Below the pieces are notes generated by a model. It saw only the letters and a list, made by a program, of their open reading frames with translations, was not told the DNA's origin and searched no databases. A stretch of DNA of 64,000 nucleotides from positions 1,054,001-1,118,000 of the forward strand of contig JBBPFI010000012.1 of assembly GCA_037974965.1 (NCBI GenBank), written 5' to 3'. A program made the position numbers and the translations under genes. The stretch comes from Dacryopinax spathularia. Its lineage: Eukaryota; Basidiomycota; Dacrymycetes; Dacrymycetales; Dacrymycetaceae. Below, in pieces: positions 25,752 through 64,000 of this stretch; within the stretch, counting starts at the first letter, position 1; the number at the start of each line of letters is the position of its first letter.

Positions 25752-26685
25752 AGGCATGTCGTCGGATATCCCAACCCATTGTATTATGATTTGAGCTGCA
25801 TACGCAATAGATTCTATTGTCATGACCAGTGGCCATGTCTCCCCGATTGTCCTGTCTTCTTTGTTAACGGCAACGTGCTTCGATGGGCAGCATCGCGGGC
25901 TTGCATGTGTCCCGGTGGCCGCCAGCATCTCCGGAACAAAGTTTCCATGTTGTCCCCTCCAAATCAACACAACGGCGAACCAGTCCGTTCGCACGGGCAA
26001 CCTATGGCGAAGGACCGAGAACAAGGGGGCCTAAACGCGGTTTTATTGTCGGCCCTGCTGACGGACATATCACGTAAGCGATGCACTTCGAAATCTCCGC
26101 CCTCTCAAGCACATGACTTCCTGGGTTAGCATGCTCTCCTTTTGGACTTACGGGACAAGCACTTCTGCTCCGACAATGATGGGCAGCGCTCTTTTGAGGG
26201 ACAGGCTCTGCACCGCTTGGAAGGAGGGCAAATTCCGCATGCGTCGCTCGGCATCAGAGCTGACCAATTGGTTAACTTATACATTCAGGGTCTCCCTTGT
26301 GCCACAAGCCCCTTCACTGCGCCCTGCACCTCAGTCTCTCAACCTGACCTTGGCAGAACACGGGATTGATTCATATTGGCTTGCTCCAGATCATTCGCCC
26401 TTACGAAGTTGGCACAACTCTTTACGGCACGCAAGCTGTTTCCGGATCATACGTGACCCCGCGCATATGATTCCCGATGACTGCTTGCGGCCCGACTTGC
26501 TCTGTCCTCCCACGCCGTTCTCACGGCACACTTTGCCCAGGCTCAGCGAGTCGCGGACTCCAGGTCGTTAAATAGGCCGTTAAGATCGCGCCCGATGGCA
26601 CCCCGAGGATACTTGTCTGCTTTCTCTCGTCAGCGCCCGTCGTTTCTTTGCCGATATCCGCACCTGAACAAACTTCATCGAAACA
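25752..26685. other. Intergenic, no gene seen
   Basis: The 934 bp between NPL4 and the second dienelactone hydrolase should hold the NPL4 3' UTR and the hydrolase promoter. Frames here are short and unlike known proteins. A pyrimidine-rich leader (TTTCTCTCGTCAGCGCC region) precedes the ATG. Confidence 0.45.
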
Positions 26686-27695
26686 ATGTCTAACCCATCT
26701 GGATTGTCTTCTTGCTGCGTTTCTGGTCACCTCCATGAAGGTACCCCCACCGGTACCATCGAGAAGATTGAGGGTCTGGACGTGTACGTTGCGAAGACGG
26801 AGAGCGGCAGCAAGGCCAAGACTGTGATCTTCATTACCGATGTCTTCGGCTGGGCTGTTCCCGTAAGTAATCGAACTGAGCTGGAAGTGTCTCCCGCTGA
26901 CCCACAGCGCAGAACGCTCGTCTCCTCGCTGATGAGTACGCGAAAGCTGGGTTCTACACCTACATTCCAGACTTGCACCAGGGTATGCATTATTTTGGTG
27001 GCGCCGTTGCGCTATTACTCACAAGCCATTGCAGGCGACAGTGTCCCATACTCGATGCTGTTGACCATCCAGCCCGCTGAGCCAGAAAAGCGCACTCCTG
27101 AGCAGGCCCAAGCCGACCACGACAAGACTATGGCGTACGTCGGACCTTGGTCGCAGAAGCACAGCAAGGAGGTTGTCAGGCCCCTGCTTGACAAGTTCGT
27201 TGCCCACCTCCGTGCCGACCCGGCAGTCGGCAAGCTTGGCGCCGTCGGCTTCTGCTGGGGAGCCATGTATGCTCTGGACCTGGCTGACTCCGGCTCCGTC
27301 GAGTGAGTTTCGTGACGGAGGTTGTTCTTGCCTGTTATTGATTGATGATAGCGCGATCGTCGGCAACCACCCTTCGTTCGCCGGTGAGCCCGAGTTCAGC
27401 GGGGTCACCAAGCCCACGCAGATCAACGTCGGCGACAACGATGTGGTACGTATGCTCCTCGCAGTAGCTTCTTCTCAAACTGAAAATACCCGCCCAGTTC
27501 ATGTCGAACGAGTTTATCGCTGAGGTCAAGGCGGCCATGGAGAAGAAGACCCATGTGCCATTCGAGGTCAACATCATCCATACCGCCGTGCACGGCTTCG
27601 CTGTCCGTGGTGACCTCACCAACCCGCAACAGAAGGCGAACAAGGAGAAAGCCTACGAGAACACTGTTAGGTGGTTCAACACGTACCTTGCGTGA
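26686..27695 (+). CDS. Dienelactone hydrolase family protein (copy 2)
   Basis: Starts MSNPSGLSSCCVSGHLHEGTPTGT and keeps the nucleophile Cys in GAVGFCWGAMYAL, the Asp candidate in VGDNDV, and the catalytic His in TAVHGFAVRGD. It ends VRWFNTYLA. The exon layout matches copy 1, with introns near 26862-26912, 26982-27034, 27306-27351 and 27447-27497. Divergence from copy 1 is moderate, so the duplication is not recent. Both copies appear intact. The substrate may differ, since residues around the active-site Cys (WGGK versus WGAM) are not the same. Confidence 0.87.
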
Positions 27696-31606: not shown

Positions 31607-31734
31607 GAGGCATGCCCAAACATATTTAATTAATGGTAGAACCTTTGTTTATTAGCTGAATAAAGGAATAAGAATGGACCATTTATATAGTAGCAGAGAT
31701 TGAGGGTGGAGAAAAACAAAAAAAACATCAAAAT

Positions 31735-32860
31735 AGGGTCCTAGGGGGGCCCCTGTCCGTCCTTGCGACTGAGTCGCAAAGATTCACTGGACGCGGAAGG
31801 GTCGAAAAATAGGACCCTAGTTGGGCCCCTGTCCGTCCTTGCGACTGAGTCGCAAAGATTCACTGGACGCGGAAGGGTCGAAAAATAGGACTCTAGTTGG
31901 GCCCCTATCCGTCCTTGCGACTGAGTCGCAAAGATTCAGTGCACGGAGAACAGGCGAAAAACAGGACTCTAGTTGGGCCCCTATCCGTCCTTGCGACTGA
32001 GTCGCAAAGATTCACCCGACGCGGAAGGGTCGAAAAATAGGACTCTAGTTGGGCCCCTATCCGTCCTTGCGACTGAGTCGCAAAGATTCACCCGACGCGG
32101 AAGGGTAAAAAAAAGACGACCCAAGTTGGGCCCCTGTCCGTCCTTGCGACTGAGTCGCAAACATTCACTGGACGCGGGAGCGTCGAAAAAAGGACCCAAG
32201 TTGGGCCCCTGTCCATCCTTGCGACTGAGTCGCAGAGATTCACTCGACGCGGAAGGGTCGAAAAAACAGGACCCAAGTTGGGCCCCTGTCCGTCCTTGCG
32301 ACTGGGTCGCAAAGATTCCCCACATGCGGAAGGGTCAAAAAAGAAGAGCCTAGTTGGGCCACTGTCCGTCCTTGCGACTGAGTCGCAAGGATTCACCCGA
32401 CGCGGGAGGGTCGAAAAATGTGGCTCTAGTATCACCCCCTGTCTGTCTTTGCGACTGAGTCGCAATAATTCACTGGACGCGGGAGCGTCGAAAAATATGG
32501 CCCTAGTATAACCCCCTGTCTGTCCTTGCGACTCAGTCGCAAAAATTCACTGGACGCGGGAGCGTCGAAAAGTAGGACCCTTGTAAGGGGCCCTGTGCGT
32601 CCTTGCGACTGAGTTGCAAAGATTGACTGCATGGGGAACGGTCGAAAAACAAGACCCTAGTGGGGTCCCTTCCCTTCCTTGCAACTCAGTCGCAAAGATT
32701 GACTGGACTAAGGAGCGTCGGCAAATAGGAGCCTTGCAGATCGCCCTGCCCGCCCTTGCGACTCAGTCGCCAGAATCCACCGCACAACTGAGCGTTGAAA
32801 AATAGGACCCTCTAAAGGGGCCCTGTTCGTCTTTGCGACTGAGTCGCAAATATCACTCCA
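31735..32860 (+). repeat. Tandem array of about fifteen 76-77 bp units with a dyad core
   Basis: The core TTGCGACTGAGTCGCAA recurs at a 75-77 bp step (first T at about 31763, 31839, 31915, 31991, 32067, 32144, 32219 and so on, to about 32833). It is a 17-base palindrome with an odd centre. Between cores are conserved pieces AGATTCACTGGACGCGGA, GGGTCGAAAAATAGGACC and TAGTTGGGCCCCTGTCCGT. Units are closest to each other on the left and middle and decay toward the right. The array ends about 1 kb before the SNF2 gene. Confidence 0.92.
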
Positions 32861-33888: not shown

Positions 33889-36800
33889 ATGGGCATTCTA
33901 TCGCTCTGCCATATCTTTCTCTCCTTCACTTTTCTGCCCGTTCGCCTGAGCGAGCCCTCGACAACTTCGCGACGCAAGCCGACGAAGAAGCACCCAGCGC
34001 CCGATGACGCAGAAGCGACTGAAGGCGAGGATGCTACGGACCTGGCAACCGCCGCCGTCGTCCCCGATGTGGATGATTCCGAAGAGGTAGTGGCCTGGGT
34101 GAACGCGTCGAACGACTCTGCTGGTGCGGAAGCCGGCACCGCCAGTTTTCCGCCCGGCATGGAGCTCTGTCTGTCCCCGTCGGCCGATGATACTGTCTGG
34201 GCGCTTCCCACCTGGCGCAAACTCTTCGCCGTTGAGGGCGATCCCCGCTTTGTCAACCCTGGCATGTGGGGTCGTGTTGAACATCGTCAGGTTCAGGTCT
34301 TTCTCCATCAAATCGGCTCGTTCTTTGCCACGGCCCGTCAGGCTGCCTTCGCGATGTACATGAAGTATGGAGTTCGTCGCTCCAAACTTGGTCATGAAGG
34401 TCAACGCATCTGGGAGGCCTTTGTCATCGATTTAGTTCGTTTTCGACTCAATCCGGCCGTGCACTCGATCCTCCACTCCATCCCCGATCTAACCCCCCAT
34501 CGCAAGATCCGCGAGACGCAAGGCAAAAATGTGCGTGTCACCCTGCCAACGTTCCGTATCGTTGCTCACTTCTTGTTTCGCAGACCACCCTGCCCAAAGA
34601 CTACGATCGGTTCTACCCTCGCACGGCCCGCGTCTTCCTAGGAGGTCCCGAGGATAACGCCTACTCGCTCAAAGAGGTCCCCGGCAAGACCTACCCTGAG
34701 ATTCACTGGGGCAACCCCGACCTGCAAATCCTGTTCCACGATATCTTGTACACGAACTGGCGCCGTTACTCAGCCGCGGGTGTAACCAAATACGGTCGCA
34801 TGAAAAAGAAGTATGAGGAAGCCCGAAAGTTATGGCAAGGTGCGCTGCTTGTGTCCTCCTCTCAGCATTGCCTCACCTCTTTTCCAGAGTGGAAAGCCCA
34901 ATCCACGGAACCGACCGAAGCGCCCGCTCAGTACATGCACCGGATCATGAAGGCGTCTCGTGAACTTCTGAATGAGGTTCGTGGAATGGAGCTTGCCCCA
35001 GAATGGGAGACCTTCGTCGAGACCATGTCGGCCGACCTTCGCTTGTTGATGGAGGCGCTCAGCTTACCTCCGGACGCCCGAGTTATTTTCTCTGGGCAGA
35101 GTGCGTCTTTGTTTCCCTCAGGCCAAATTCCTGTCACGTGCTGATCTTGTGCTGCAGAACTGCACCCCAGTGTCGCTCGCACTCTCGCCCGCCTTACGTC
35201 AGCCACGGACATCGAAGATCTGCGCATTGTGCATGTCGCTCGTCTTCGTGAAGCGATCGCTGACAGGCACCTGGATGCCGAGGACGATAATGACGATCCA
35301 GCCATGATGGAACCGGATGATCGTGAAAAGTGGCTGGCCAAGGAATTCGAAAACTGGACGGGCGAGCTCAAGGCGCAGGCGGGCCTCGATGAGGCCACGT
35401 TGACGAAACGATTAGGCGGTAACCCCTCGGAACCCGGCCGACTGCCCGGTCTTCGGCCTGAACTTCATGCGTTGGGTCTCCTTCCTGAGGACATTCCGGA
35501 GCAATGGAAGCAAGATCGGGACAAGGGCCTCGTCTCCCCCTTCCGACTGCTTCATCATCAGCTGCAAGCGGTTGATGAGCTGATGGAGCGCTTCCTCTAT
35601 GGGGAAGCGATGGGGCTTTTCGATGAGGTCGGGCTTGGGAAGACCGCCCAAATGATCGCCCTGATCTGCTTGGCCGTGGAGTTCCACGACTTTTGGGAGA
35701 TCCACAAGCGTTTCCCTGGGAGGTACGGCGATGCACAGATGGATTGCCGCCGCTACAACCGCCGCGCTGTTAGCGACGATTTCTCGTACCAGGCCTACAC
35801 GAGGTTCCAGAACATCCCGAACCTTCCGTGGCTCATCATCCTGCCGCCGACCCTCATTGACCAGGTGGCGTCCGAGTTTGCCCGGATGGTGGAACGCAAC
35901 TACCTCGACGTGATCGAGTATCAAGGCACGCTCGCCGTTCATGAGCAGGTCGTTGGCCAGGGCATGGTATGGCAGCACTCCAAGCAGCCGCTTATCCGCC
36001 GAGTCGTTCTTGCCAGTCAGTCTGTGAGTGTGTTTTTTCTCTCCGTCCATAACTTTCTGATGAATGTATTCTATCAGGCCATCGCTGTGGATGCCAAAGC
36101 ACTTTGGGCGAACGATAAGACCCATCGTCCTCTCTACGCTGCCCAAGAGTGTTCGCCGCTCTTCCCCACTGCCGTGGAGAAGACCATTTTCTCCATCAAG
36201 TTTGGCGGCGTCATCGTCGACGAAGCCCATCACCATCGCAACCCTGGTCACACTCTATGGGCGCTGTACCATCTCCGCGACACGGGTGCATGGATGCTCG
36301 CCATGACTGCTACTCCGCTCATGAATTCTCCCCGAGTAAGTGTCTTTCACACTACTGCTCGCTTCCAAAGGTTCACATCTCTCCAGGATCTCGCCAACCT
36401 CGGCCGATGGCTTGGCATCCCCGCCTTCACGAGCAATATACGCGAGGAGGAAATTGAGGAGATGGAGAAGGAGGTGAGGCGCGCGCGCAACCAAGCCAAT
36501 TCGCGCCGTCGTAAGGGTTTGCCTGCGCTCCCGGCCATTGAGCTTGGGGCGATGCAGAAGATGCTGGAGTGTTATCGAAAGTGGTGGGAGGGCCGGGTCA
36601 TCCGCCGCACCATCGACTCGAAGAAACCGGATGGTAACCCGATCATCCCGCTTCCTCCGTACGTGTCGGTCAAAATGTGGCTTCGGATGTCCGATGTGGA
36701 GGAAGAGGCGATGACGAAGATTGCGGAAGCCACGCAAAAAACGGCCAAGACGCACTTCAACCGGATCGCCGGGATCATACCGTCTCTTTATCAGGACGGA

Positions 36801-38683
36801 GGAGTGCGTCGTCCTCTCTCTCTTCTCAACGCATACTGATCCCCCTGGCACAGAACTTTTGGATTAGCTATCGCACAGGCGTCCTCAACCCCGTCGTCAG
36901 CGTCACCAAAGGGCTCGAGGCAACATGGCCCACTTCCATCGAACATTACCACAAGTATCGCAGTTCGAAGTTCGATGCCATGATCACCCTCCTCTTGTAC
37001 TTCAAGTTTTTCGGTCAGGATGCCCCGCCCATCAAAATGTTTCCCGCCAATGCTGAAGAGGCCGCGAGCGGACGTTACACGCGCATGGTGTTCTTCGATG
37101 AACATCTGTACCCGGCTGACCCCGCTCAATTTCAAGACCCTTCGGATGAACATTTTGCCGCCCTCGAGATGACGGACCTTAAAGGGCAAGCTCTTTTCAT
37201 ACGTTACCCGGACCAGTTCCCGAACCTTGGTCCCCCTGTGCGTCGCGTTCTGGATCGTCTGGCTGGGCGTCCACCGACGGACCTTGAGCTCCAGCCCGGC
37301 TTCGCTCCTGACCCTCTCCCTCACGGCGTGCTGAACGGTGAACGGCCTGATCATACGCCGTTCACGCCAGCCCAGATCCGTGCGGTACGGCACTGGATCC
37401 TGAAGGACATCGAAGCACGTCTCGACCGGATCCAGCAGGGCGAGCGGTTCATGTTCCGTTGGGCGAAGGATGCGGGTTACCCTGGTGCGATCAAGGGCAT
37501 GCCGCACCGCCCCATTGCCGTGTACCAGCATTTCCCCTCCAACTTCCCCATGACGAAGCGGGTGAGTCCTTTACTTTGTGGCGGAAGACACTTTTGTCTG
37601 ATCTTTACCCTTCGTCCAGATCCTCAGCCTCTTCGGCTTCAAGGTGTCCACCTTGCATGGCAGCATGAGCATGGGCGAGCGGACCGAAGCTGTCCGTGCT
37701 TTCAAGGCCGGCAAGACGGACGTGCTTCTGTTCTCCCAGGTTGCCTCTGCCGGGCTCAACTTGGCCGAGTGCAACATTTTGATCGTCATGGTGAGCACCT
37801 ACTCTTCCGCATCAAGTCGCTTCACTGACTCCGCTCTTTATTTCAGGACTTGATGTGGTCTGCTCAGCTATGGCGCCAGACCGTGGGACGCTTTTGGCGT
37901 TCTCCGCAATCGCGAGAAGTCCAGGTCTACGACCTCCTCCTTTCCGGCACCATCGAGGACGTGATGTACACCGGCTCGGTTGGGAAGCAGCGTCTCCTTC
38001 AGACGTATCTCGGCAACGAGGCGCTGGTGGACCGCCGGGAGGCGCAAGCAGCTCGTCAGCGGGCGCGCGCTGAAGACGACGGCCGGAAAAAGGGAAAGAA
38101 GGCCCTCAAGCCGATCTCCGCGGAGGATGAGGAGATCAATGTCCCTCTGGCGGGGCTCACTGAGTTGCCGCCCGCCGAGCTGAGCGACGGAGACGACGGA
38201 TTGGGGCGCCTCCCTTTCCCCGAGAAGAAGGCGGCGATGGAAGCGCAGAAGTTGGCAAAGCAGCGGGCCAGGGAGGAACTTGCCGCGAAGCGCGCGGCTT
38301 CGAAAGCGGCCAAGGCGAACGCTGCCGCTGATGGTCAGCCTGCCAAGAAAAGGCAGAAGAAGAAAGCGGCAAGCCCGCCCGCGCAGGAGGAGCCAATCCC
38401 TACTGTCGACCCACCCGCCGCAGACGATGTCCCCATGGCGGAGGCGAGCGATGCGGATGCGGAGGGTGAACCAGATCCGGACGTTCCGCAGGCAGGGCCA
38501 TCGAGGCCCACCCGGAGCCCTCAGAAGCGCAAGCAGGCTGCGAGGGGAACGAGAGGCAAGAAGAGAGGTCGAGGCAGAGGCGGCAAGCAAGCCGCTCAAG
38601 CCACGCAACGCACTTCCCGCAGGCCACCGGGCGGTATCGGGAGGAAGGAGAGTGAGTTTATCCTTCAACAATTACCCCAGTGA
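33889..38683 (+). CDS. SNF2-family DNA-dependent ATPase/helicase (full-length copy)
   Basis: Nine exons (33889-34530, 34584-34839, 34888-35100, 35158-36023, 36078-36335, 36387-36803, 36854-37561, 37620-37790, 37847-38683) give 1,455 residues in one frame. Helicase motifs in order are HHQLQAVDELMERF, DEVGLGKTAQM (Walker A Lys about 532), VDEAHHHRN (about 707), LAMTATPLMNS, then in the second lobe HGSMSMGERTEAVRAF, SQVASAGLNL and RQTVGRFWRSPQ. About 400 residues before the ATPase match nothing known. The C terminus is a long basic Lys/Arg/Ala-rich tail with a PRGxRGRGRGG-like end, likely for DNA or chromatin contact. The insert between the two lobes is large. It probably acts on nucleosomes or stalled DNA, but the target is unknown. 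Confidence 0.87.
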
Positions 38684-39390
38684 TACCCCCCTTTTTCTTA
38701 ACCTTCCTGTGTAATTCGGTTTTGCCCTCCATTAATGTCATAGGTTCTTTGAGCTGGTTGAGCAGCAGACATTCCAGCTACCTCGCGTTGACAACACTCA
38801 ATTCCTGCAGGGCGTACCGTGTATTGCTCAAACCACGCTGTTCCTATCATCCGTTTTCCTCTTGCCCCTGTCACGTCCTTCGCGAACATCAGGTTGCTGT
38901 GAGTACCATTTCAATTGAGGCGACCGTTCACACCATCATCCGTTCCTCCTTCTGCCCCTGTCACGTCCTTCGCGAACATCAAGTTGCTATGAGTACCATT
39001 ACATTCGAGGCCATCATTCACACTGATTGTCACCGCAGACCTTTCGCAACCGCAAAATTGCATGAACACCAGATTTCCATCTTTTCTTCACCGCGCTCCC
39101 CCTGTCACATCTCCGGCAGTTGTCTGCTCCGTTTTTTGAGCGGGAAGAGCACCAGGTTTCCATCATTCGTTCCTGGTTTGGCCCTTGTCACATCACCGGC
39201 AGTTGTGGCCCCCATCTATCGAGTTGCTATGAGCAGACTCGCACCTAACCACCGTCCAGCCAATTCTACCCTCGTGTACCTCCTTCAGCCATAAAAGGGC
39301 CTACTGACAGAGGATGCAAGGTTCATACTCCTCCGGAGCTGCCTTTGTCCCGCCGTAATCTGCATACAACCACAAAGCACCTGTCTCACC
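38684..39390 (+). repeat. Intergenic spacer with degenerate about 90-bp direct repeats
   Basis: Two good copies (38863-38952 and 38953 to about 39030) share TGCCCCTGTCACGTCCTTCG, CGAACATCA and TTGCT(G/A)TGAGTACCATT. Two weaker ones follow (CCTGTCAC or CTTGTCAC near 39108 and 39186, each with CCGGCAGTTGT). The same spacer recurs at 46877-47583. It probably holds the promoter of the RecQ gene. Confidence 0.75.
39290..39296 (+). promoter_or_regulatory. TATA-like box of the first RecQ copy
   Basis: CATAAAAGGG lies about 100 bp before the ATG at 39391. The identical box at 47483-47489 precedes the second copy. Confidence 0.55.
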
Positions 39391-42300
39391 ATGCCTGCGA
39401 GGCGCTCAACGGCCAATCGCATCACAGTGGCCCTCGTTGACTGCCCGCCCTTCATCTCTGGTTTGACTACTGTTTCCGTTGTGCCTGTGCCGTGTTCTGA
39501 CATTGTGCATGTAGGAGCTGCATGCAACATCGACGCATGTGATTTTCGGACCGATTTCAAAGGACGCTGGCTGACCCACTGGTCGGCCCATCATGCTCTT
39601 TCGGTCAGCCTTCATTACATGAGCGAGGCGCACCCGGTCCTGCTTCACCGCCGTATGGAGTCTGATGACTTCTTGTGCCCGGAATGCAACTTCACTCATC
39701 AATCGGCGCACAGTCTTATGGATCACTTCAACCATCATCATTCGTCGGTAAAGAAGCCTTCTGGACGCATCCGCTTGCCTGGTCGTCGAGTCGCAGCTGA
39801 CAACGCGTCGGCTTTTCCCGTTGTCCTCCGCACTGAGCTGGGCGAGGAGGAAACGGAGATGAAGGTCGACTCCCCTGTGTCTCCCTCGGATTTTGTGCCT
39901 GAGTCGCCCATCCCATCCCTTCACAGCAGCCCAGCACCCGTGGACGATCTCCCGATGTACTCCTCCGATGTGGTGCCTGAGTCGCCCCTCCCTGATCACG
40001 GCAGCCCGGGAACGATGTTGGAGGACAATCCGCCTGCGCTGTCCTTCGCGCATGTATCTGACCCACTCCGCGACTCCGTCGAAGGAACGGTAGATCCGAT
40101 TTCGGACCATTTCGACAACCGCCTTGCTTCTGAGCCCTTCCTCTCCCGATTAGGCCTCATGCACCATCCCGGCCTTCGTGCGGTGATATGCACTGGAGAA
40201 GACTGCGGATTTGTGGTATTGCCATCCGCCGTCCATCATCATATCCACCATGCACATAAGTATGGTTTTCGCATTTCGAAGCGCGAAGTGCTAGATGGCC
40301 TCGCCCCTTTTGGTCTGGCTGAGGACGGCGAAACCATCCGCGTGCCTGAAGGCCTTTGTCCGCGCATCGTGGGACTCAATGTCAAACGTGGCCTGCGTTG
40401 CCCCCTCTGCGGTTATCTCTGTGGCACCGAGGGAACTTTCAAGAAACACGTGCACGCGGCTCCCGATCATTCGCGATCCGTCGTACCGATCCCGGTTGCC
40501 CTGCAAACACTCTTGCAAGGTGCGGCCTTCGCTATTTTGAAGTGCACCTTGGCCTGCCGACTGGCGAGATGGAAGGCGAAGATGCGAGTTCCATCTTCGA
40601 GGCGGACTGGACTCGGTTGCAGCAGCGGGATGCCATCATTTCGCTTCCTCATTCGGACCGAGACTTGAACCCCCTGCTGGAGAAGCTGCGTTGGGCGCAC
40701 CATTTGGAAGGCTATCCCGCTGGGGCCTTTGCCGCATTGGCCAAAATGCCAAACGCGGACGAGCCCGAAGGCGTGGGCTTCGTGGCATTGAAGACCATCG
40801 TGGAGCGCATGTATCGCCAGATGATGAGTGTGGTGCGCAATGGTGACACGCTCAGCCTGAAATGGGTCAAGAGCACCTCCGAGTGCGTTCCACCCCATGC
40901 GCTCAAATTGTATTATTGAATGTCTTTTCAGGGAACCCGCCCTCCATGCTTTCGAACCCCACCAGACTCTGAAGGCGGGCGACCGGTGCGCGCACGCATT
41001 GCTGCGGCTGACCTGCTTCTGTTTGCGGACGAAACCGGCAGGTTACGCCCTCCCAACTACGGAAGCACAACATGAGGCCGTGGCACAGCTGCGCAAGGCG
41101 CTGCGGCACGCGTTACGCAATGGTATGGAAGCTCTGAGTAACTCCATGTCTGAATCGAGCGCCTTGGACTCGCCGTTGCTTACTCTGTGGCTGGCGCTCA
41201 TCCGCCATGAGACCAGCGAGCGGACTGGCGATCCCTTCCCCCATGTGGTAGAGCGGTTTGTGATTTGTTGGTGTCTTCGCGAGGACGGGTCGTTTGAGTC
41301 TGCGGAAAGTGTCAGCCCCAAAATTGGTTACCTGAAGCATGCTTTTCGCGCGGTGATCTATGCGGCGGCTGAGGCGGAAGCGGAACGGGCCAACGAAACG
41401 ATCTTCTCGTACGCAGCCCTTTCTTGCCTGCTCGCTCTGCGAAGTCTTATCGTGTTTCTTTTCAGGGTTATTCGACGAGAACGTCGTTGGCTTGTGCCGT
41501 ACACACCTACGCCTTGGACGTCGATCACCCATGTTGGTGCCATTGCTGCTACCATTGCCGAACGGACCATGGCGGTCAGCCACGTGATGTGGATGGAGGG
41601 ACGGCGCAAGATGTGCGTTGATGGCGTCCGAATCAGTGCAGACACGATCTCGACATCATGGCTCAAGCTACTTGGCGACCTTGAAACCGAATTCGATACC
41701 ATGCTGGATGGTGCCGGATCCGTTTGCGATCTGGACCCGAGCTACACTCACCTGGTGGACCCGCTGGAGTGCAATCGGGCATACCACTCTTTCCTGCTTG
41801 AGCCACAGAACCCGTTCGGTTCAGGGGATATGCGTCTTCTGCGCGCGTGGCTCGGGATGGCTTCCGGCCCGTACCACAATGGCACGGAAGACGGTGTTAT
41901 TATTTGGCGCACCGGGCGTATGTATCACCTCCTCAAAACGTGTGCCACCTTTGAGCTTGGGTTATGGACGTTGTACACACTCGGATCAGGCCTACCGTCT
42001 CGGGCGGAAGAGGACGCCACTTTAAGCTTCTGTAACACGCCCGGCCACCCCAGCAACCTTCATTGGATTCCGACAGGCGAAGTCGATGACCCGGACGTTC
42101 ATGGGCTCCTTTGCATCATTGGCGGATATCACAAGAACGCCCACCAGACCGGAGAGAATAAGGTGGTCATCAACGCCATGCCGCCCCGCCTTGGTCGCCT
42201 CTTTATCCGGTATGTCGCCTTCATGAAGCCAGTTCTGTACTATTTCTCGACGGTATTGGGCGCCAGTCCGAAGACGGTGGAGGCATACCGAACCCAACTA

Positions 42301-43848
42301 TTTGTGGGTCTGAACGGGCATCTGGACGGGGAGGACCTCTCAAATGCCCTGCATGCGTTCAGCACGCGATGTTGGTCGGACGCGCTTGGGGTGCGAACAT
42401 GGCGTCATGCCGCGACCGCATGGGCGCGTGAACACATCAAGACGCAAGACATTGTGGACCTGGTCGAGGCCCTCGTGGATCTCCAGTCCGGGCACTCCGC
42501 CACCACCGCTGATCGTATCTATGGGTTGACGGCGGGTTCTTTCCGTCACCTTTCTGATACCCATCTCCGAGGATCGTTGCGGATCAGTCTCTTTTGGGCG
42601 GCGTCCTTCGGGATCGGCCCTGGCCCTCGGTCCTCTCAGCCTAGCGCGGTCATCCGTTTGCCGACGCACGAGGGATCTAAGGCGGCCTCGTTCACGCTTG
42701 AAACACTTGTGGACGCGATCTCGCAGCGACTGGATGCACGTGAGGTCTCTCGTCTTGGAGAAGCCTTCGGGGAAGCCCTTGCACCCTTTGCGCGGCAGTT
42801 GGAGACGATTTCGGCCCATGCACACGTCCGTCCCCTGACGCCTCTGCCTGGTGACTTTGCGCATCTCGCACTACTCCGTCGAGTGTTGGGGCAGCCCGAT
42901 GCATCCTTCCGACCAGGTCAAGGGCCGCTTCTCGCGGAAGCGTTTGCGCGCAAGCACTCGCTGCTTGTCGCCCTGCCGACAAGCGCCGGAAAGTCCATGA
43001 GCGTCTTCCTGCCGGCGGCGAGCAGTGCCGAGCAGGGAATGACCACCGTGGTCGTGATGCCACTGCTTGCCTCCATTGAGGATGCACTCCACCGCGGATC
43101 ACGGCTTGGTGTTACAACCGCCGCATATGATCCTGTCATGACATTGAACGCCGTCCCCCAAGTCCTCCTAATGACTCCGGAGGCGTTCGGAAGCAGCGCG
43201 GCGCTTGCCTTTGTTCGGAGTTTATCGGCGTCGTGTCGTCTCTCTCGCATTGTGTTCGACGAGGCCCACCATGTCATCACCTCGGAGGGCTGGAGGAACG
43301 TCACGCGGCCGATGCAACATCTGCATGATGTGCCGTGCCCAAAGATTGCCATGTCGGCCACGATACCCTATGCGGCACGCCCGTATGTGCAAGCCCAGCT
43401 TGGGCTGCTGACCCCGGTCTGGGTGAGCGACGTGACGGTGCGGACCAACCTGGAAAGGAGGGCACTGCGCGTGGGCAAGGATGAGCTGGTGAACGCGGTT
43501 GTCGCCGCTGTGCGTCTTGCTGCCGCCAAACTGGGGCCGGACGGTCGCGGCATCGTGTATTGCGTGAGCAAGTCGATGACCGAGTTGCTCACGCGCGCGC
43601 TGAGTGAGGCTCAAGATGTCTCCGCGGTGTACTACCATGCGGGCTTGAATTCGCAACAACGCAAGGCGCTTTTTGAGGACTGGTGTGCTGGTACATCGCC
43701 AGTGATCGTCTGCACCACTGCATTCGGAGAAGCCGTCGATGTTGGCGCCGTTCGCTTTGTCATCCATGCCGAGTCCCCTCGTTGCCTCATTGACAAGGTC
43801 CAGCGGGGCTTTTCGATGAGGTCGGGCTTGGGAAGACCGCCCAAATGA
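39391..43848 (+). pseudogene. C2H2 - recombinase-like - RecQ gene, 3'-truncated copy
   Basis: Same gene as the whole copy at 47584-53214, with exons 39391-40519, 40576-40882, 40932-41408 and 41466 onward. It reads normally through the zinc-finger, recombinase-like and first RecQ parts, then is cut at 43804 in the middle of motif VI (after CLIDKVQ). Beyond that it runs out of frame into the SNF2 duplicate for about 14 residues (RGFSMRSGLGRPPK) and stops. It lacks the arginine finger region QDGRAGRDG and the Cys-rich C terminus, so it should not work as a helicase, though the N-terminal domains could still be made as a truncated protein. Confidence 0.88.
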
Positions 43849-46800
43849 TCGCCCTGATCTGCTTGGCCGTGGAGTTCCACGACTTTTGGGAGATCCACAA
43901 GCGTTTCCCTGGGAGGTACGGCGATGCACAGATGGATTGCCGCCGCTACAACCGCCGCGCTGTTAGCGACGATTTCTCGTACCAGGCCTACACGAGGTTC
44001 CAGAACATCCCGAACCTTCCGTGGCTCATCATCCTGCCGCCGACCCTCATTGACCAGGTGGCGTCCGAGTTTGCCCGGATGGTGGAACGCAACTACCTCG
44101 ACGTGATCGAGTATCAAGGCACGCTCGCCGTTCATGAGCAGGTCGTTGGCCAGGGCATGGTATGGCAGCACTCCAAGCAGCCGCTTATCCGCCGAGTCGT
44201 TCTTGCCAGTCAGTCTGTGAGTGTGTTTTTTCTCTCCGTCCATAACTTTCTGATGAATGTATTCTATCAGGCCATCGCTGTGGATGCCAAAGCACTTTGG
44301 GCGAACGATAAGACCCATCGTCCTCTCTACGCTGCCCAAGAGTGTTCGCCGCTCTTCCCCACTGCCGTGGAGAAGACCATTTTCTCCATCAAGTTTGGCG
44401 GCGTCATCGTCGACGAAGCCCATCACCATCGCAACCCTGGTCACACTCTATGGGCGCTGTACCATCTCCGCGACACGGGTGCATGGATGCTCGCCATGAC
44501 TGCTACTCCGCTCATGAATTCTCCCCGAGTAAGTGTCTTTCACACTACTGCTCGCTTCCAAAGGTTCACATCTCTCCAGGATCTCGCCAACCTCGGCCGA
44601 TGGCTTGGCATCCCCGCCTTCACGAGCAATATACGCGAGGAGGAAATTGAGGAGATGGAGAAGGAGGTGAGGCGCGCGCGCAACCAAGCCAATTCGCGCC
44701 GTCGTAAGGGTTTGCCTGCGCTCCCGGCCATTGAGCTTGGGGCGATGCAGAAGATGCTGGAGTGTTATCGAAAGTGGTGGGAGGGCCGGGTCATCCGCCG
44801 CACCATCGACTCGAAGAAACCGGATGGTAACCCGATCATCCCGCTTCCTCCGTACGTGTCGGTCAAAATGTGGCTTCGGATGTCCGATGTGGAGGAAGAG
44901 GCGATGACGAAGATTGCGGAAGCCACGCAAAAAACGGCCAAGACGCACTTCAACCGGATCGCCGGGATCATACCGTCTCTTTATCAGGACGGAGGAGTGC
45001 GTCGTCCTCTCTCTCTTCTCAACGCATACTGATCCCCCTGGCACAGAACTTTTGGATTAGCTATCGCACAGGCGTCCTCAACCCCGTCGTCAGCGTCACC
45101 AAAGGGCTCGAGGCAACATGGCCCACTTCCATCGAACATTACCACAAGTATCGCAGTTCGAAGTTCGATGCCATGATCACCCTCCTCTTGTACTTCAAGT
45201 TTTTCGGTCAGGATGCCCCGCCCATCAAAATGTTTCCCGCCAATGCTGAAGAGGCCGCGAGCGGACGTTACACGCGCATGGTGTTCTTCGATGAACATCT
45301 GTACCCGGCTGACCCCGCTCAATTTCAAGACCCTTCGGATGAACATTTTGCCGCCCTCGAGATGACGGACCTTAAAGGGCAAGCTCTTTTCATACGTTAC
45401 CCGGACCAGTTCCCGAACCTTGGTCCCCCTGTGCGTCGCGTTCTGGATCGTCTGGCTGGGCGTCCACCGACGGACCTTGAGCTCCAGCCCGGCTTCGCTC
45501 CTGACCCTCTCCCTCACGGCGTGCTGAACGGTGAACGGCCTGATCATACGCCGTTCACGCCAGCCCAGATCCGTGCGGTACGGCACTGGATCCTGAAGGA
45601 CATCGAAGCACGTCTCGACCGGATCCAGCAGGGCGAGCGGTTCATGTTCCGTTGGGCGAAGGATGCGGGTTACCCTGGTGCGATCAAGGGCATGCCGCAC
45701 CGCCCCATTGCCGTGTACCAGCATTTCCCCTCCAACTTCCCCATGACGAAGCGGGTGAGTCCTTTACTTTGTGGCGGAAGACACTTTTGTCTGATCTTTA
45801 CCCTTCGTCCAGATCCTCAGCCTCTTCGGCTTCAAGGTGTCCACCTTGCATGGCAGCATGAGCATGGGCGAGCGGACCGAAGCTGTCCGTGCTTTCAAGG
45901 CCGGCAAGACGGACGTGCTTCTGTTCTCCCAGGTTGCCTCTGCCGGGCTCAACTTGGCCGAGTGCAACATTTTGATCGTCATGGTGAGCACCTACTCTTC
46001 CGCATCAAGTCGCTTCACTGACTCCGCTCTTTATTTCAGGACTTGATGTGGTCTGCTCAGCTATGGCGCCAGACCGTGGGACGCTTTTGGCGTTCTCCGC
46101 AATCGCGAGAAGTCCAGGTCTACGACCTCCTCCTTTCCGGCACCATCGAGGACGTGATGTACACCGGCTCGGTTGGGAAGCAGCGTCTCCTTCAGACGTA
46201 TCTCGGCAACGAGGCGCTGGTGGACCGCCGGGAGGCGCAAGCAGCTCGTCAGCGGGCGCGCGCTGAAGACGACGGCCGGAAAAAGGGAAAGAAGGCCCTC
46301 AAGCCGATCTCCGCGGAGGATGAGGAGATCAATGTCCCTCTGGCGGGGCTCACTGAGTTGCCGCCCGCCGAGCTGAGCGACGGAGACGACGGATTGGGGC
46401 GCCTCCCTTTCCCCGAGAAGAAGGCGGCGATGGAAGCGCAGAAGTTGGCAAAGCAGCGGGCCAGGGAGGAACTTGCCGCGAAGCGCGCGGCTTCGAAAGC
46501 GGCCAAGGCGAACGCTGCCGCTGATGGTCAGCCTGCCAAGAAAAGGCAGAAGAAGAAAGCGGCAAGCCCGCCCGCGCAGGAGGAGCCAATCCCTACTGTC
46601 GACCCACCCGCCGCAGACGATGTCCCCATGGCGGAGGCGAGCGATGCGGATGCGGAGGGTGAACCAGATCCGGACGTTCCGCAGGCAGGGCCATCGAGGC
46701 CCACCCGGAGCCCTCAGAAGCGCAAGCAGGCTGCGAGGGGAACGAGAGGCAAGAAGAGAGGTCGAGGCAGAGGCGGCAAGCAAGCCGCTCAAGCCACGCA

Positions 46801-46876
46801 ACGCACTTCCCGCAGGCCACCGGGCGGTATCGGGAGGAAGGAGAGTGAGTTTATCCTTCAACAATTACCCCAGTGA
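43805..46876 (+). pseudogene. SNF2-family gene, 5'-truncated copy
   Basis: Begins inside the ATPase core at GLFDEVGLGKT and continues with the same introns as the whole gene to the same stop codon. It lacks its promoter, start codon and the first about 523 residues. Walker A itself is retained just after the break. The first in-frame ATG would be the Met of TAQMIAL, 3' of Walker A, so no intact ATPase is expected. It is probably silent or a read-through tail of the truncated RecQ transcript. Confidence 0.88.
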
Positions 46877-47482
46877 TACCCCCCTTTTTCTTAACCTTCC
46901 TGTGTAATTCGGTTTTGCCCTCCATTAATGTCATAGGTTCTTTGAGCTGGTTGAGCAGCAGACATTCCAGCTACCTCGCGTTGACAACACTCAATTCCTG
47001 CAGGGCGTACCGTGTATTGCTCAAACCACGCTGTTCCTATCATCCGTTTTCCTCTTGCCCCTGTCACGTCCTTCGCGAACATCAGGTTGCTGTGAGTACC
47101 ATTTCAATTGAGGCGACCGTTCACACCATCATCCGTTCCTCCTTCTGCCCCTGTCACGTCCTTCGCGAACATCAAGTTGCTATGAGTACCATTACATTCG
47201 AGGCCATCATTCACACTGATTGTCACCGCAGACCTTTCGCAACCGCAAAATTGCATGAACACCAGATTTCCATCTTTTCTTCACCGCGCTCCCCCTGTCA
47301 CATCTCCGGCAGTTGTCTGCTCCGTTTTTTGAGCGGGAAGAGCACCAGGTTTCCATCATTCGTTCCTGGTTTGGCCCTTGTCACATCACCGGCAGTTGTG
47401 GCCCCCATCTATCGAGTTGCTATGAGCAGACTCGCACCTAACCACCGTCCAGCCAATTCTACCCTCGTGTACCTCCTTCAGC

Positions 47483-47489
47483 CATAAAA
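47483..47489 (+). promoter_or_regulatory. TATA-like box of the full-length RecQ gene
   Basis: CATAAAAGGG about 100 bp before the ATG at 47584, identical to the copy at 39290. Confidence 0.55.
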
Positions 47490-47583
47490 GGGCCTACTGA
47501 CAGAGGATGCAAGGTTCATACTCCTCCGGAGCTGCCTTTGTCCCGCCGTAATCTGCATACAACCACAAAGCACCTGTCTCACC

Positions 47584-50500
47584 ATGCCTGCGAGGCGCTC
47601 AACGGCCAATCGCATCACAGTGGCCCTCGTTGACTGCCCGCCCTTCATCTCTGGTTTGACTACTGTTTCCGTTGTGCCTGTGCCGTGTTCTGACATTGTG
47701 CATGTAGGAGCTGCATGCAACATCGACGCATGTGATTTTCGGACCGATTTCAAAGGACGCTGGCTGACCCACTGGTCGGCCCATCATGCTCTTTCGGTCA
47801 GCCTTCATTACATGAGCGAGGCGCACCCGGTCCTGCTTCACCGCCGTATGGAGTCTGATGACTTCTTGTGCCCGGAATGCAACTTCACTCATCAATCGGC
47901 GCACAGTCTTATGGATCACTTCAACCATCATCATTCGTCGGTAAAGAAGCCTTCTGGACGCATCCGCTTGCCTGGTCGTCGAGTCGCAGCTGACAACGCG
48001 TCGGCTTTTCCCGTTGTCCTCCGCACTGAGCTGGGCGAGGAGGAAACGGAGATGAAGGTCGACTCCCCTGTGTCTCCCTCGGATTTTGTGCCTGAGTCGC
48101 CCATCCCATCCCTTCACAGCAGCCCAGCACCCGTGGACGATCTCCCGATGTACTCCTCCGATGTGGTGCCTGAGTCGCCCCTCCCTGATCACGGCAGCCC
48201 GGGAACGATGTTGGAGGACAATCCGCCTGCGCTGTCCTTCGCGCATGTATCTGACCCACTCCGCGACTCCGTCGAAGGAACGGTAGATCCGATTTCGGAC
48301 CATTTCGACAACCGCCTTGCTTCTGAGCCCTTCCTCTCCCGATTAGGCCTCATGCACCATCCCGGCCTTCGTGCGGTGATATGCACTGGAGAAGACTGCG
48401 GATTTGTGGTATTGCCATCCGCCGTCCATCATCATATCCACCATGCACATAAGTATGGTTTTCGCATTTCGAAGCGCGAAGTGCTAGATGGCCTCGCCCC
48501 TTTTGGTCTGGCTGAGGACGGCGAAACCATCCGCGTGCCTGAAGGCCTTTGTCCGCGCATCGTGGGACTCAATGTCAAACGTGGCCTGCGTTGCCCCCTC
48601 TGCGGTTATCTCTGTGGCACCGAGGGAACTTTCAAGAAACACGTGCACGCGGCTCCCGATCATTCGCGATCCGTCGTACCGATCCCGGTTGCCCTGCAAA
48701 CACTCTTGCAAGGTGCGGCCTTCGCTATTTTGAAGTGCACCTTGGCCTGCCGACTGGCGAGATGGAAGGCGAAGATGCGAGTTCCATCTTCGAGGCGGAC
48801 TGGACTCGGTTGCAGCAGCGGGATGCCATCATTTCGCTTCCTCATTCGGACCGAGACTTGAACCCCCTGCTGGAGAAGCTGCGTTGGGCGCACCATTTGG
48901 AAGGCTATCCCGCTGGGGCCTTTGCCGCATTGGCCAAAATGCCAAACGCGGACGAGCCCGAAGGCGTGGGCTTCGTGGCATTGAAGACCATCGTGGAGCG
49001 CATGTATCGCCAGATGATGAGTGTGGTGCGCAATGGTGACACGCTCAGCCTGAAATGGGTCAAGAGCACCTCCGAGTGCGTTCCACCCCATGCGCTCAAA
49101 TTGTATTATTGAATGTCTTTTCAGGGAACCCGCCCTCCATGCTTTCGAACCCCACCAGACTCTGAAGGCGGGCGACCGGTGCGCGCACGCATTGCTGCGG
49201 CTGACCTGCTTCTGTTTGCGGACGAAACCGGCAGGTTACGCCCTCCCAACTACGGAAGCACAACATGAGGCCGTGGCACAGCTGCGCAAGGCGCTGCGGC
49301 ACGCGTTACGCAATGGTATGGAAGCTCTGAGTAACTCCATGTCTGAATCGAGCGCCTTGGACTCGCCGTTGCTTACTCTGTGGCTGGCGCTCATCCGCCA
49401 TGAGACCAGCGAGCGGACTGGCGATCCCTTCCCCCATGTGGTAGAGCGGTTTGTGATTTGTTGGTGTCTTCGCGAGGACGGGTCGTTTGAGTCTGCGGAA
49501 AGTGTCAGCCCCAAAATTGGTTACCTGAAGCATGCTTTTCGCGCGGTGATCTATGCGGCGGCTGAGGCGGAAGCGGAACGGGCCAACGAAACGATCTTCT
49601 CGTACGCAGCCCTTTCTTGCCTGCTCGCTCTGCGAAGTCTTATCGTGTTTCTTTTCAGGGTTATTCGACGAGAACGTCGTTGGCTTGTGCCGTACACACC
49701 TACGCCTTGGACGTCGATCACCCATGTTGGTGCCATTGCTGCTACCATTGCCGAACGGACCATGGCGGTCAGCCACGTGATGTGGATGGAGGGACGGCGC
49801 AAGATGTGCGTTGATGGCGTCCGAATCAGTGCAGACACGATCTCGACATCATGGCTCAAGCTACTTGGCGACCTTGAAACCGAATTCGATACCATGCTGG
49901 ATGGTGCCGGATCCGTTTGCGATCTGGACCCGAGCTACACTCACCTGGTGGACCCGCTGGAGTGCAATCGGGCATACCACTCTTTCCTGCTTGAGCCACA
50001 GAACCCGTTCGGTTCAGGGGATATGCGTCTTCTGCGCGCGTGGCTCGGGATGGCTTCCGGCCCGTACCACAATGGCACGGAAGACGGTGTTATTATTTGG
50101 CGCACCGGGCGTATGTATCACCTCCTCAAAACGTGTGCCACCTTTGAGCTTGGGTTATGGACGTTGTACACACTCGGATCAGGCCTACCGTCTCGGGCGG
50201 AAGAGGACGCCACTTTAAGCTTCTGTAACACGCCCGGCCACCCCAGCAACCTTCATTGGATTCCGACAGGCGAAGTCGATGACCCGGACGTTCATGGGCT
50301 CCTTTGCATCATTGGCGGATATCACAAGAACGCCCACCAGACCGGAGAGAATAAGGTGGTCATCAACGCCATGCCGCCCCGCCTTGGTCGCCTCTTTATC
50401 CGGTATGTCGCCTTCATGAAGCCAGTTCTGTACTATTTCTCGACGGTATTGGGCGCCAGTCCGAAGACGGTGGAGGCATACCGAACCCAACTATTTGTGG

Positions 50501-53214
50501 GTCTGAACGGGCATCTGGACGGGGAGGACCTCTCAAATGCCCTGCATGCGTTCAGCACGCGATGTTGGTCGGACGCGCTTGGGGTGCGAACATGGCGTCA
50601 TGCCGCGACCGCATGGGCGCGTGAACACATCAAGACGCAAGACATTGTGGACCTGGTCGAGGCCCTCGTGGATCTCCAGTCCGGGCACTCCGCCACCACC
50701 GCTGATCGTATCTATGGGTTGACGGCGGGTTCTTTCCGTCACCTTTCTGATACCCATCTCCGAGGATCGTTGCGGATCAGTCTCTTTTGGGCGGCGTCCT
50801 TCGGGATCGGCCCTGGCCCTCGGTCCTCTCAGCCTAGCGCGGTCATCCGTTTGCCGACGCACGAGGGATCTAAGGCGGCCTCGTTCACGCTTGAAACACT
50901 TGTGGACGCGATCTCGCAGCGACTGGATGCACGTGAGGTCTCTCGTCTTGGAGAAGCCTTCGGGGAAGCCCTTGCACCCTTTGCGCGGCAGTTGGAGACG
51001 ATTTCGGCCCATGCACACGTCCGTCCCCTGACGCCTCTGCCTGGTGACTTTGCGCATCTCGCACTACTCCGTCGAGTGTTGGGGCAGCCCGATGCATCCT
51101 TCCGACCAGGTCAAGGGCCGCTTCTCGCGGAAGCGTTTGCGCGCAAGCACTCGCTGCTTGTCGCCCTGCCGACAAGCGCCGGAAAGTCCATGAGCGTCTT
51201 CCTGCCGGCGGCGAGCAGTGCCGAGCAGGGAATGACCACCGTGGTCGTGATGCCACTGCTTGCCTCCATTGAGGATGCACTCCACCGCGGATCACGGCTT
51301 GGTGTTACAACCGCCGCATATGATCCTGTCATGACATTGAACGCCGTCCCCCAAGTCCTCCTAATGACTCCGGAGGCGTTCGGAAGCAGCGCGGCGCTTG
51401 CCTTTGTTCGGAGTTTATCGGCGTCGTGTCGTCTCTCTCGCATTGTGTTCGACGAGGCCCACCATGTCATCACCTCGGAGGGCTGGAGGAACGTCACGCG
51501 GCCGATGCAACATCTGCATGATGTGCCGTGCCCAAAGATTGCCATGTCGGCCACGATACCCTATGCGGCACGCCCGTATGTGCAAGCCCAGCTTGGGCTG
51601 CTGACCCCGGTCTGGGTGAGCGACGTGACGGTGCGGACCAACCTGGAAAGGAGGGCACTGCGCGTGGGCAAGGATGAGCTGGTGAACGCGGTTGTCGCCG
51701 CTGTGCGTCTTGCTGCCGCCAAACTGGGGCCGGACGGTCGCGGCATCGTGTATTGCGTGAGCAAGTCGATGACCGAGTTGCTCACGCGCGCGCTGAGTGA
51801 GGCTCAAGATGTCTCCGCGGTGTACTACCATGCGGGCTTGAATTCGCAACAACGCAAGGCGCTTTTTGAGGACTGGTGTGCTGGTACATCGCCAGTGATC
51901 GTCTGCACCACTGCATTCGGAGAAGCCGTCGATGTTGGCGCCGTTCGCTTTGTCATCCATGCCGAGTCCCCTCGTTGCCTCATTGACAAGGTCCAGCAGG
52001 ACGGACGCGCTGGCCGGGATGGGCGTCCGTCTTTGGTGTACACCATTTACAGCCACCCGCCTCCGGAGCACGCCGCCGGACTACCGGATCATGCGGGATG
52101 CAGAGCCATGCGCGCCTGGCTGCAGGCCCACACCCAAGGACGGTGTCTGGTGGCGGTGGAATCCGATTTCCTGGACGGTGCTCCTCGCACGTGTGTGGAC
52201 TTGGGATCTACGCCGTGTCAAAGTTGCTGTGGGTCGGTTTTGGGGGATGGCGTGCTGGGAGATTGGGTGAGGCCCCTTGCGATCCCCACCGCCCCTATCC
52301 CGAAAGGCAGCATCGAAGTCGCCCCGTCACCTAGCTATCCAATGGACGACGATCCGGCTTACATGGCGGAAGTGGGCGCGATCATGGACCGTGTCGAAAC
52401 CGCCGCGCTCCCACAGGAGAGCAGGCGAAGAAGTAACGCTTCTTTTTCCCCCCACGTGACCACTGCTTCGCCGGAGCCGTCCTTGATCTCCACGGGGAGC
52501 CGTCGAACACTCCAATCGACTACATCCGGTGCCCGGCATGTAGCATCGTCCTACCCTACCCCCGCACCTTCCTCACGTGCGTCTTCTTCCACTGATCGCC
52601 GTGTGGCCACGGTCCCTCGGCCCGCACTCAGCGTGGGTCCCTACGTCGATGCTGAGGTGGCGATGCGCCGTCGGCGGGAGAAATCTGCCGTGGCGGTGGC
52701 GCTCCATCGCGCGCTGGTATCGACCGAGGCGACGTGCCCGCACTGTTGGTTCCATGATCCGGCACGTCCCGGACATCATGGGCTTTTTTCTTGCCCATCC
52801 ATGGCACGCCAGAAGAACGTGTACTCAACCTTCCGAAACGCACTGCAACAAGGTTATCCGCCATTGTCGGACGTTTGCACGCGTTGCTTGCTTCCCAATT
52901 GGTCACCAGAGTTCCATTCAGACCGCACTTGCCTCATGAGCGACACCGCTTGCACGATTGCATTCCTGCTCCACACGAATGTGGATTGGTTTGAGCGCGT
53001 GGCGCGCGCCTTCGAGCCGCGGATGAGCGAGGCAGAACGAGCGCTTTACCCACAGGCTTGGGTGGATCCGCAGCAGTTTGCCCGCTGGCTCGGTCACCAT
53101 GAAGGTGGCGTCGTCTGGGTCATGCCGTGCCTGATGGAGGTATGCAGCTGGTTCGTGCAAGAGAAGGATCGCATCCACACAGCAGACGCCATGCAACCTT
53201 CGTCCTCGTCGTAG
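47584..53214 (+). CDS. C2H2 finger - tyrosine-recombinase-like - RecQ helicase fusion, 1,822 aa
   Basis: Exons 47584-48712, 48769-49075, 49125-49601 and 49659-53214. Residues about 45-375 hold finger-like Cys/His groups: FLCPECNFTHQSAHSLMDHF, VICTGEDCGFVVLPSAVHHH and RCPLCGYLCGTEGTFKKHV, resembling fungal DUF3505-type regions. Residues about 770-1000 show the tyrosine-recombinase order: GSGLPSRAEE (Arg 817), GYHKN (Lys 861), VRTWRHAATA (Arg 951, His 952), LQSGHS (His 981) and DRIYG (Tyr 990); the His-to-Tyr distance of 9 equals that in XerD. From about 1115 comes a RecQ-type helicase: LPTSAGKS (Lys 1147), VFDEAHH (Asp 1236), AMSATIP and QDGRAGRDG. The C terminus has CPHCWFHD...GLFSCPS and CTRCLLPNW...DRTCLM Cys/His clusters. 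Fungal telomere-linked RecQ helicases share part of this architecture. Function here is unknown. Confidence 0.87.
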
Positions 53215-63183: not shown

Positions 63184-64000
63184 GATTCCTGATGACTAAT
63201 CATGTTTTTTTGATGACTAATTGGGTCTGGGAGTCCAATGGGCATGATTAGTCATCACCAATCACGATTAGTCATGCGGGAATGGCACACGGATGCTGTT
63301 ATGGCTGGGGGCTAGATCGCCCTTCATCAAAGGTACGGCACAGCGCTCTGCAGCGGGATTCCTGATGACTAATCGTGTTTTTAGGTGGACTAATTGACCT
63401 AAAGAGTCAATGTGCACCGATTAGTCATCAGGGATCTGGCTCAGTGATGAAGCAATGGCCGCTGCGGGATATTGCAGGCGGTCCAGGAATTGCACCATGC
63501 GCAGAGCAGCCCGCAGGCAGAATTCTGATGACTAATCATGTTTTTTGGTGACTAATGGACCTAAATAGTCAGTCTGCATGCATTAGTCATCAGGAATCTG
63601 GCTCGGTGACGGAGGAACAGCCCCTGCGGGATATCACAGGCTACAGCCATGTGCACCCACCGCAGAGCATCCCGCTGGCAGATTCCTGATGACTAATCAT
63701 GACATTTGGCGACTAATTGACCTGTAGAGTCTGTCTGCACCGATTAGTCATCAGGAATCTCGCTCGGTGATGGCGAAATGGCCTTGACGCAATATCAAAG
63801 GAAACAGCCATGCATATGCACCGCACAGCATCCCGCAGGCAGAATCCTGATGACTAATCGTGTTTTTTGGTGACTAATTGACCTATAGAACCAGTCTGCA
63901 CCGATTAGTCATCAGGGATCTGGCTCGGTGACGGAGAAATGGCCGCTGCGGGATAGCGCAGGGGGCCAGGAATTGCACCATGCGCCAGGCATCCCGCTGG
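63184..64000. repeat. 161-173 bp tandem repeat (satellite-like) with internal inverted repeats
   Basis: Five units start near 63184, 63357, 63520, 63681 and 63842; the last runs off the window. Each opens with CCTGATGACTAATC(A/G)TG and about 70 bases later has the inverted form CGATTAGTCATCAGG, able to form a stem of about 13-14 bp around an inner GACTAATTGACC. The right half of each unit (GGATCTGGCTCGGTGACGG, CCGCTGCGGGATA) is less well kept. No coding frame. Confidence 0.85.

Follow-up and report, generated by a model that had tools for sequence, protein, structure and literature searches.

The whole 64-kb stretch of Dacryopinax spathularia DNA analysed here (the window; contig JBBPFI010000012.1) contains, at 47584-53214, a gene for a predicted protein of 1,822 amino acids (aa). 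This protein combines an OrsD domain and a RecQ-like helicase with a middle region that aligns above chance with tyrosine recombinases (YRs) and holds Arg, Arg, His and Tyr in the order, and with the His-to-Tyr spacing, of these enzymes. The best explanation is that the gene belongs with or near the fungal genes for OrsD and RecQ-type helicase proteins (telomere-linked helicases and related repeats). The middle region is probably a divergent tyrosine-recombinase-type domain, active or decayed, with somewhat over half of that likelihood falling to an active enzyme and the remainder to a decayed fold. The sequence evidence for a recombinase-type middle is suggestive, not proof.

Architecture of the predicted protein

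The features of the gene are as follows.

47584..53214, + strand: predicted four-exon gene for the 1,822-aa OrsD / YR-like / RecQ-helicase protein; splice sites by inspection
47584-48712, 48769-49075, 49125-49601 and 49659-53214, + strand: its exons, which join into one open frame
47869..47934, + strand: N-terminal C2H2-like finger, CPECNFTHQSAHSLMDHFNHHH, from residue 96; found by pattern, Pfam finger matches being sub-threshold
48349..48651, + strand: OrsD domain (PF12013), residues 256-356; hmmscan E 1.8e-11
50077..50784, + strand: tyrosine-recombinase-like region, residues 778-1013; from unguided alignment, controls, threaded model and Foldseek
50194..50196, + strand: Arg 817, candidate catalytic Arg I (RxxE); from sequence position and unguided alignment
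50326..50328, + strand: Lys 861, candidate catalytic Lys; from sequence position, unaligned to the recombinase Lys
50596..50601, + strand: Arg 951-His 952, candidate Arg II (RTWRH; Arg 948 replaces the first His of HxxR)
50683..50715, + strand: Gly 980-His 981 to Tyr 990, candidate His III and nucleophile (GHSATTADRIY)
51133..52023, + strand: RecQ-like superfamily 2 helicase (PTSAGKS, DEAHH, QQDGRAGRDG); span of two Pfam matches
52735..52974, + strand: two C-terminal Cys/His clusters, from residues 1664 and 1711; found by pattern

The exons are predictions. The introns of 56, 49 and 57 nt each run from GT to AG. The least certain splice is that of intron 1 (48713-48768), which is forced because the reading frame shifts there; alternative splice choices are present, and the intron could alternatively be a frameshift. 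The recombinase-like region lies within a single uninterrupted open reading frame (ORF; 49090-53214, 1,374 aa) in the long last exon and is therefore independent of the splicing.

At the N-terminal end of the protein the finger is followed by the OrsD domain, which scores 44.9 bits against a Pfam gathering threshold of 26.6 bits. Cys/His clusters begin at residues 96, 337, 1664 and 1711. The helicase is recognized by Pfam in both of its halves (PF00270, E 5.4e-11, 42.9 bits; PF00271, E 4.3e-15, 56.3 bits), and Walker A, the DEAH box and motif VI are all present. Searching plasmids by tblastn matched 1001 records; the 20 of these listed span the helicase part only, and are annotated as RecQ (13), without annotation (5) or as hypothetical (2). 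The RecQ-type helicase recognized in the sequence-only reading is thus borne out by the two Pfam families and the RecQ-annotated plasmid matches. In a viral-contig collection the helicase part matched five loci at 23-25% identity. Pfam matches of the ORF with E values of 10 or less include neither an RQC nor an HRDC domain.

Comparison of the middle region with tyrosine recombinases

The middle region contains five short motifs, GSGLPSRAEE from residue 811 (R817), GYHKN from 858 (K861), VRTWRHAATA from 947 (R948, R951 and H952), GHS from 980 (H981) and IYG from 989 (Y990). The residue numbers of the sequence-only reading for R817, K861, R951-H952, H981 and Y990 are all exact in the spliced 1,822-aa translation, and two further details that it gave, a His-to-Tyr spacing of 9 as in XerD (H981 to Y990) and an Arg (R948) in place of the first His of HxxR, are likewise found. 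Candidates for Arg I, Arg II, His III and the Tyr therefore stand in recombinase order as R817, R951, H981 and Y990. In the order R..R-H..GH..Y and in the spacing of 9 the region is like XerC, XerD and the phage integrases; unlike XerD, it has 134 rather than 99 residues between the two Arg, and Arg for the first His of HxxR.

For alignment, the best 80 of 198 IMG/VR loci encoding XerC/XerD relatives were reduced at 70% identity, giving 53 rows together with XerD and XerC. De novo alignment with MAFFT places R817, R951, H952, G980, H981 and Y990 on columns in which none of the 51 IMG/VR recombinases differs. When XerD is added to these, giving 52 recombinases, unguided MAFFT alignment matches six of seven diagnostic residues, the Lys being the exception. 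The best of the 77 decoy segments (70 from stop-to-stop ORFs of E. coli K-12 and 7 from elsewhere in the same ORF) match four of seven, a count attained by nine of them; among 250 shuffles eight attain five and one attains six. When residues 700-1050 are used, three MAFFT strategies give the identical six residues, with five of 150 shuffles reaching five and none six. Other pieces of the protein match 2, 2 and 4 of the seven. These control rates are uncorrected, the region having been picked beforehand for its motifs. Adding the region to the existing alignment (mafft --add) matches four of five catalytic residues. The identity of the middle region to the 51 recombinase rows is 12-25%. Judged motif by motif on these sequence alignments, GH..Y appears sturdy, Arg II fair to good and Arg I fair.

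Methods that score boxes or profiles select some of the same positions. A hidden Markov model (HMM) of the recombinase catalytic domain aligns with the C-terminal half of the region, where WRH falls on LRH and GHSATTADRIY on the GH..IY box. When the whole 1,374-aa ORF is scanned with a four-box matrix, R817, R951, H981 and the Tyr at +9 are selected, but K861 is not.

A structural model was obtained by running AlphaFold2 (AF2) on an alignment containing the 51 IMG/VR recombinase rows, and has a mean predicted local distance difference test score (pLDDT) of 70.5 and a predicted template modelling score (pTM) of 0.63. Comparing this threaded model with the PDB using Foldseek gives Cre, Tre (a Cre derivative), an integron integrase and Tn1549 Int at ranks 1-9, with a best E of 0.010 and query-normalized TM scores of 0.36-0.45; among the best 50 of 109 matches, proteins that are not recombinases appear from rank 10. 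In BFVD, rank 1 is an uncharacterized protein of Tetraselmis virus 1 (E 0.0022), and integrases or tyrosine recombinases account for several of the top-ranked entries that have a name. Since the recombinase rows drive the model and it has no decoy, it is compatible with a tyrosine-recombinase fold, and this is compatibility, not proof.

A number of results weigh against assigning the region to the recombinases. In the alignments, extending the query to residues 430-1120 shifts Arg I to residue 685 in all three MAFFT strategies, and in one of the three R951 is also lost (5/7). With the full protein one strategy again matches six of seven, yet only G980, H981 and Y990 are retained; such counts therefore come easier in long queries. 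The C-terminal piece of the protein alone matches four of seven, and with mafft --add nine of 300 shuffles match four or five catalytic residues. The first His of HxxR, here Arg 948, is His in all 53 rows of the recombinase set. K861 is aligned to the recombinase Lys by no run, and as the catalytic lysine proposed in the sequence-only reading it is an unconfirmed candidate. The HMM score is 3.4 bits with filters off, a value bettered by six of 3000 shuffles (1542 scored). The four-box score of 2.6 compares with 129.6-201.2 for the training recombinases; it is attained by 17/3000, 47/1500 and 27/700 shuffles at three query lengths and exceeded by two of 138 decoy ORFs (141 scored, less xerD and both copies of the gene in the window). 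Aligning the middle region of this protein alone with the recombinases by hhalign is not significant (probability 1.1%), and family and PDB sequence searches of the middle region return no recombinase. In Pfam the only match to the middle region is STAS_2 (E 0.15), in the N-terminal part of the long ORF, and 49663-50799 has no match up to E 1; NCBIfam and PHROGs give none up to E 10, and the sole match in the PDB sequence search is one designed protein (E 0.32). As for structure, the AF2 model made from the single sequence has a pLDDT of 37.5, which makes it useless, and its Foldseek matches are meaningless; the threaded model was steered by the recombinase alignment rows, with no decoy or shuffled control, and gives no Foldseek match in PDB or BFVD with E at or below 0.001. 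Its pLDDT falls below 50 at model residues 82-86, which include K861 (in a loop between two predicted strands), and at 200-223, which include H981 and Y990.

Of the domain proposed in the sequence-only reading, the order R..R-H..GH..Y has moderate support from the unguided alignment with its controls and from the threaded model, which has no control, and finds no support in profile comparison, where the hhalign probability, the HMM score and the box score are all weak. Formal membership of the tyrosine recombinases is not established, and is not claimed because the HxxR His is missing and there is no significant profile match.

Relatives of the middle region were not found in the viral-contig or genome-contig collections; as these are described as covering viruses, phages, bacteria and archaea, little follows from this for fungi. 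Searching phages by tblastn gave two records, both from a single phage, at E 2, which were taken as chance. One motif pattern scan of viral contigs gave no matches, and a second gave one contig, rejected as the ORFs at that spot are by eye unlike a helicase. PF12013 has no match in one IMG/VR record nor in 14 control genomes, a result that carries no information.

Many fungal OrsD-RecQ proteins have RG(T/E)E, YHK, YR(E/H), GH and IYxR in this order, which adds to our confidence in the recombinase-type assignment but serves as a lead only. Provisional probes (one sequence, and a three-sequence alignment of fungal type) gave no match and are not evidence. The three rows of that alignment, which we take to be of fungal type, share with the present protein R817, the YHK of K861, H981 and Y990, but the column of R951 is not invariant; neither observation is used as evidence. 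The three rows are absent from the best 25 in the recombinase HMM search, adding them to the hhalign comparison gives 0.9% (not significant), and a profile of their alignment finds no recombinase in the PDB and none in PHROGs. Against Pfam the same alignment gives weak matches to Peptidase_S8 in three of four rows and to Phage_int_SAM_1 (E 0.18) in one of four, both taken as chance.

The tandem duplication and the surrounding window

Most of the intact gene lies in the second unit of a tandem duplication.

35612..43804, + strand: first unit of the 8,193-bp duplication, with a gene copy cut off inside the helicase domain
43805..51997, + strand: second unit of the 8,193-bp duplication, which holds most of the intact gene

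The two units are identical over 8,193 bp and meet at a joint without shared bases (no microhomology). The breakpoints lie within an SNF2-type ORF (35229-36839) and within the helicase domain. In front of the first unit the 5' part of the SNF2 ORF is intact, and the unit closes with the truncated helicase gene (ORF 40897-43848); for the second unit the reverse is the case. The duplication may be a recent event or an assembly error. As a product of a tyrosine recombinase it was rejected as evidence, given the joint without shared bases and the possible assembly error.

The SNF2-type helicase ORF at 35229-36839 (PF00176, 1.4e-15) is upstream of the OrsD-helicase gene and co-oriented with it, and its 5' part is missing from the second duplication unit. 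This ORF and the OrsD-helicase gene may form one element. An NPL4 gene in two ORFs at 24206-25748 (PF05021, 5.3e-91 and 4.6e-15) provides an ordinary chromosomal context, and is followed by a dienelactone-hydrolase-like stretch at 26668-27303 (PF01738, 2.2e-07). The window also holds a minisatellite at 31730-32857 (76-bp unit, 14.8 copies) and a tandem repeat at 63360-63962 (161-bp unit, 3.7 copies). In the latter, as seen by eye, the unit opens with and goes on in complementary stretches around GACTAATCA and GATTAGTC.

Alternative readings, related elements and meaning

If the middle region is an active recombinase, the putative fold, activity, DNA target and any mobility of the protein can be joined in the following scheme, which we infer. 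The fingers would position the protein on its target DNA, where Tyr990, activated by R817, R951, H981 and perhaps K861, would cut one strand. The cut would proceed through a 3'-phosphotyrosine link, after which the strand would be rejoined. The helicase would open the DNA beside the cut, so that the end of an element or a copy of a repeat could be exchanged. That the middle of the whole fungal OrsD-RecQ family is an active tyrosine recombinase, uniting telomere-linked helicases and their internal relatives in one class of mobile or self-amplifying elements in which cutting, rejoining and unwinding of DNA all fall to a single protein, is a tentative proposal, with a chance of about one in three in our estimation.

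A sub-case of the best explanation is that the fold derives from a tyrosine recombinase and that catalysis has been lost, leaving a domain that binds DNA or acts as a scaffold for the helicase, with DUF3504 and Cbf2/Gcr1 as precedents. The Arg at the first His of HxxR and the unplaced Lys would fit such a loss, and domesticated Crypton recombinases without a catalytic site are described in the accessible text of PMC3212892. However, all four residues, R, R, H and Y, occur here and in the right order, whereas the DUF3504 genes, according to the same text, lost the Tyr and the second Arg. We regard the loss of catalysis as rather unlikely, though a serious candidate. The motifs might instead be a chance arrangement within an unrelated domain of unknown fold, a reading favoured by the lack of significance of every profile method and by control rates that are optimistic because the region was chosen for its motifs; this is unlikely in our judgement, as the match count is equalled by none of the decoy segments, by one of the 250 shuffles and, for residues 700-1050, by none of the 150. 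The main alternative kind of element is KolobokH, a fungal RecQ-bearing DDE element. As described in the accessible part of PMC9587614, it is found in fungi only and has its RecQ helicase downstream of a DDD/E transposase domain; if the gene were of this kind, it would have no tyrosine recombinase. Here, by contrast, no transposase family is among the Pfam matches, including those of the middle region, an OrsD domain is present in the 1,822-aa protein, and the flanks have no repeat in common that is better than one of 23 nt at 87% (E 0.56), the element ends being unmapped. A transposon of this kind is very improbable.

Preferring a gene with or near the fungal OrsD and RecQ-type helicase genes, the protein can be placed beside several described systems. 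The combination of OrsD and helicase is already known from fungal subtelomeric repeats; those of Colletotrichum higginsianum, in the accessible text of PMC5576322, combine DUF3505/OrsD with helicase domains. Like DHX_G198 of that species and its relatives, for which the same text reports DEAD, Helicase_C and DUF3505 together and no RQC detected, the present protein joins these parts; unlike the C. higginsianum repeats, which are subtelomeric with TTAGGG repeats, it has no such array in the 64-kb window. The word recombinase has no occurrences in the main text of PMC5576322. In Ustilago maydis a RecQ-like helicase is similarly found in UTASa and an OrsD domain in UTASb (accessible part of PMC10532341); compared by description, these differ in location, and no YR is described for them in that part, nor does the word recombinase appear among the literature records listed. 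Cryptons, again compared by description, are alike in being mobile eukaryotic YRs, fungal ones included, with R-H-R-Y, and differ in that PMC3212892 makes no use of the word helicase. In the literature searched, which covers the field in part, no mention of a recombinase was recognized for OrsD or telomere-linked helicase proteins.

The term telomere-linked, used in the sequence-only reading, applies to the gene by family resemblance only: the 64-kb window has no run of at least two TTAGGG units, and the NPL4 gene is about 22 kb upstream. Descriptions of helicase genes at fungal chromosome ends go back decades, a 1998 paper on Ustilago being one that is cited. Their spread is, to our knowledge, without an explanation. 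If the same protein does contain a recombinase, this would offer a testable mechanism for it. Annotations that assign OrsD genes to orsellinic-acid biosynthesis (for example in the accessible part of PMC11051394) would be affected as well, and a poorly understood fungal gene family would look like an engine of mobile DNA.

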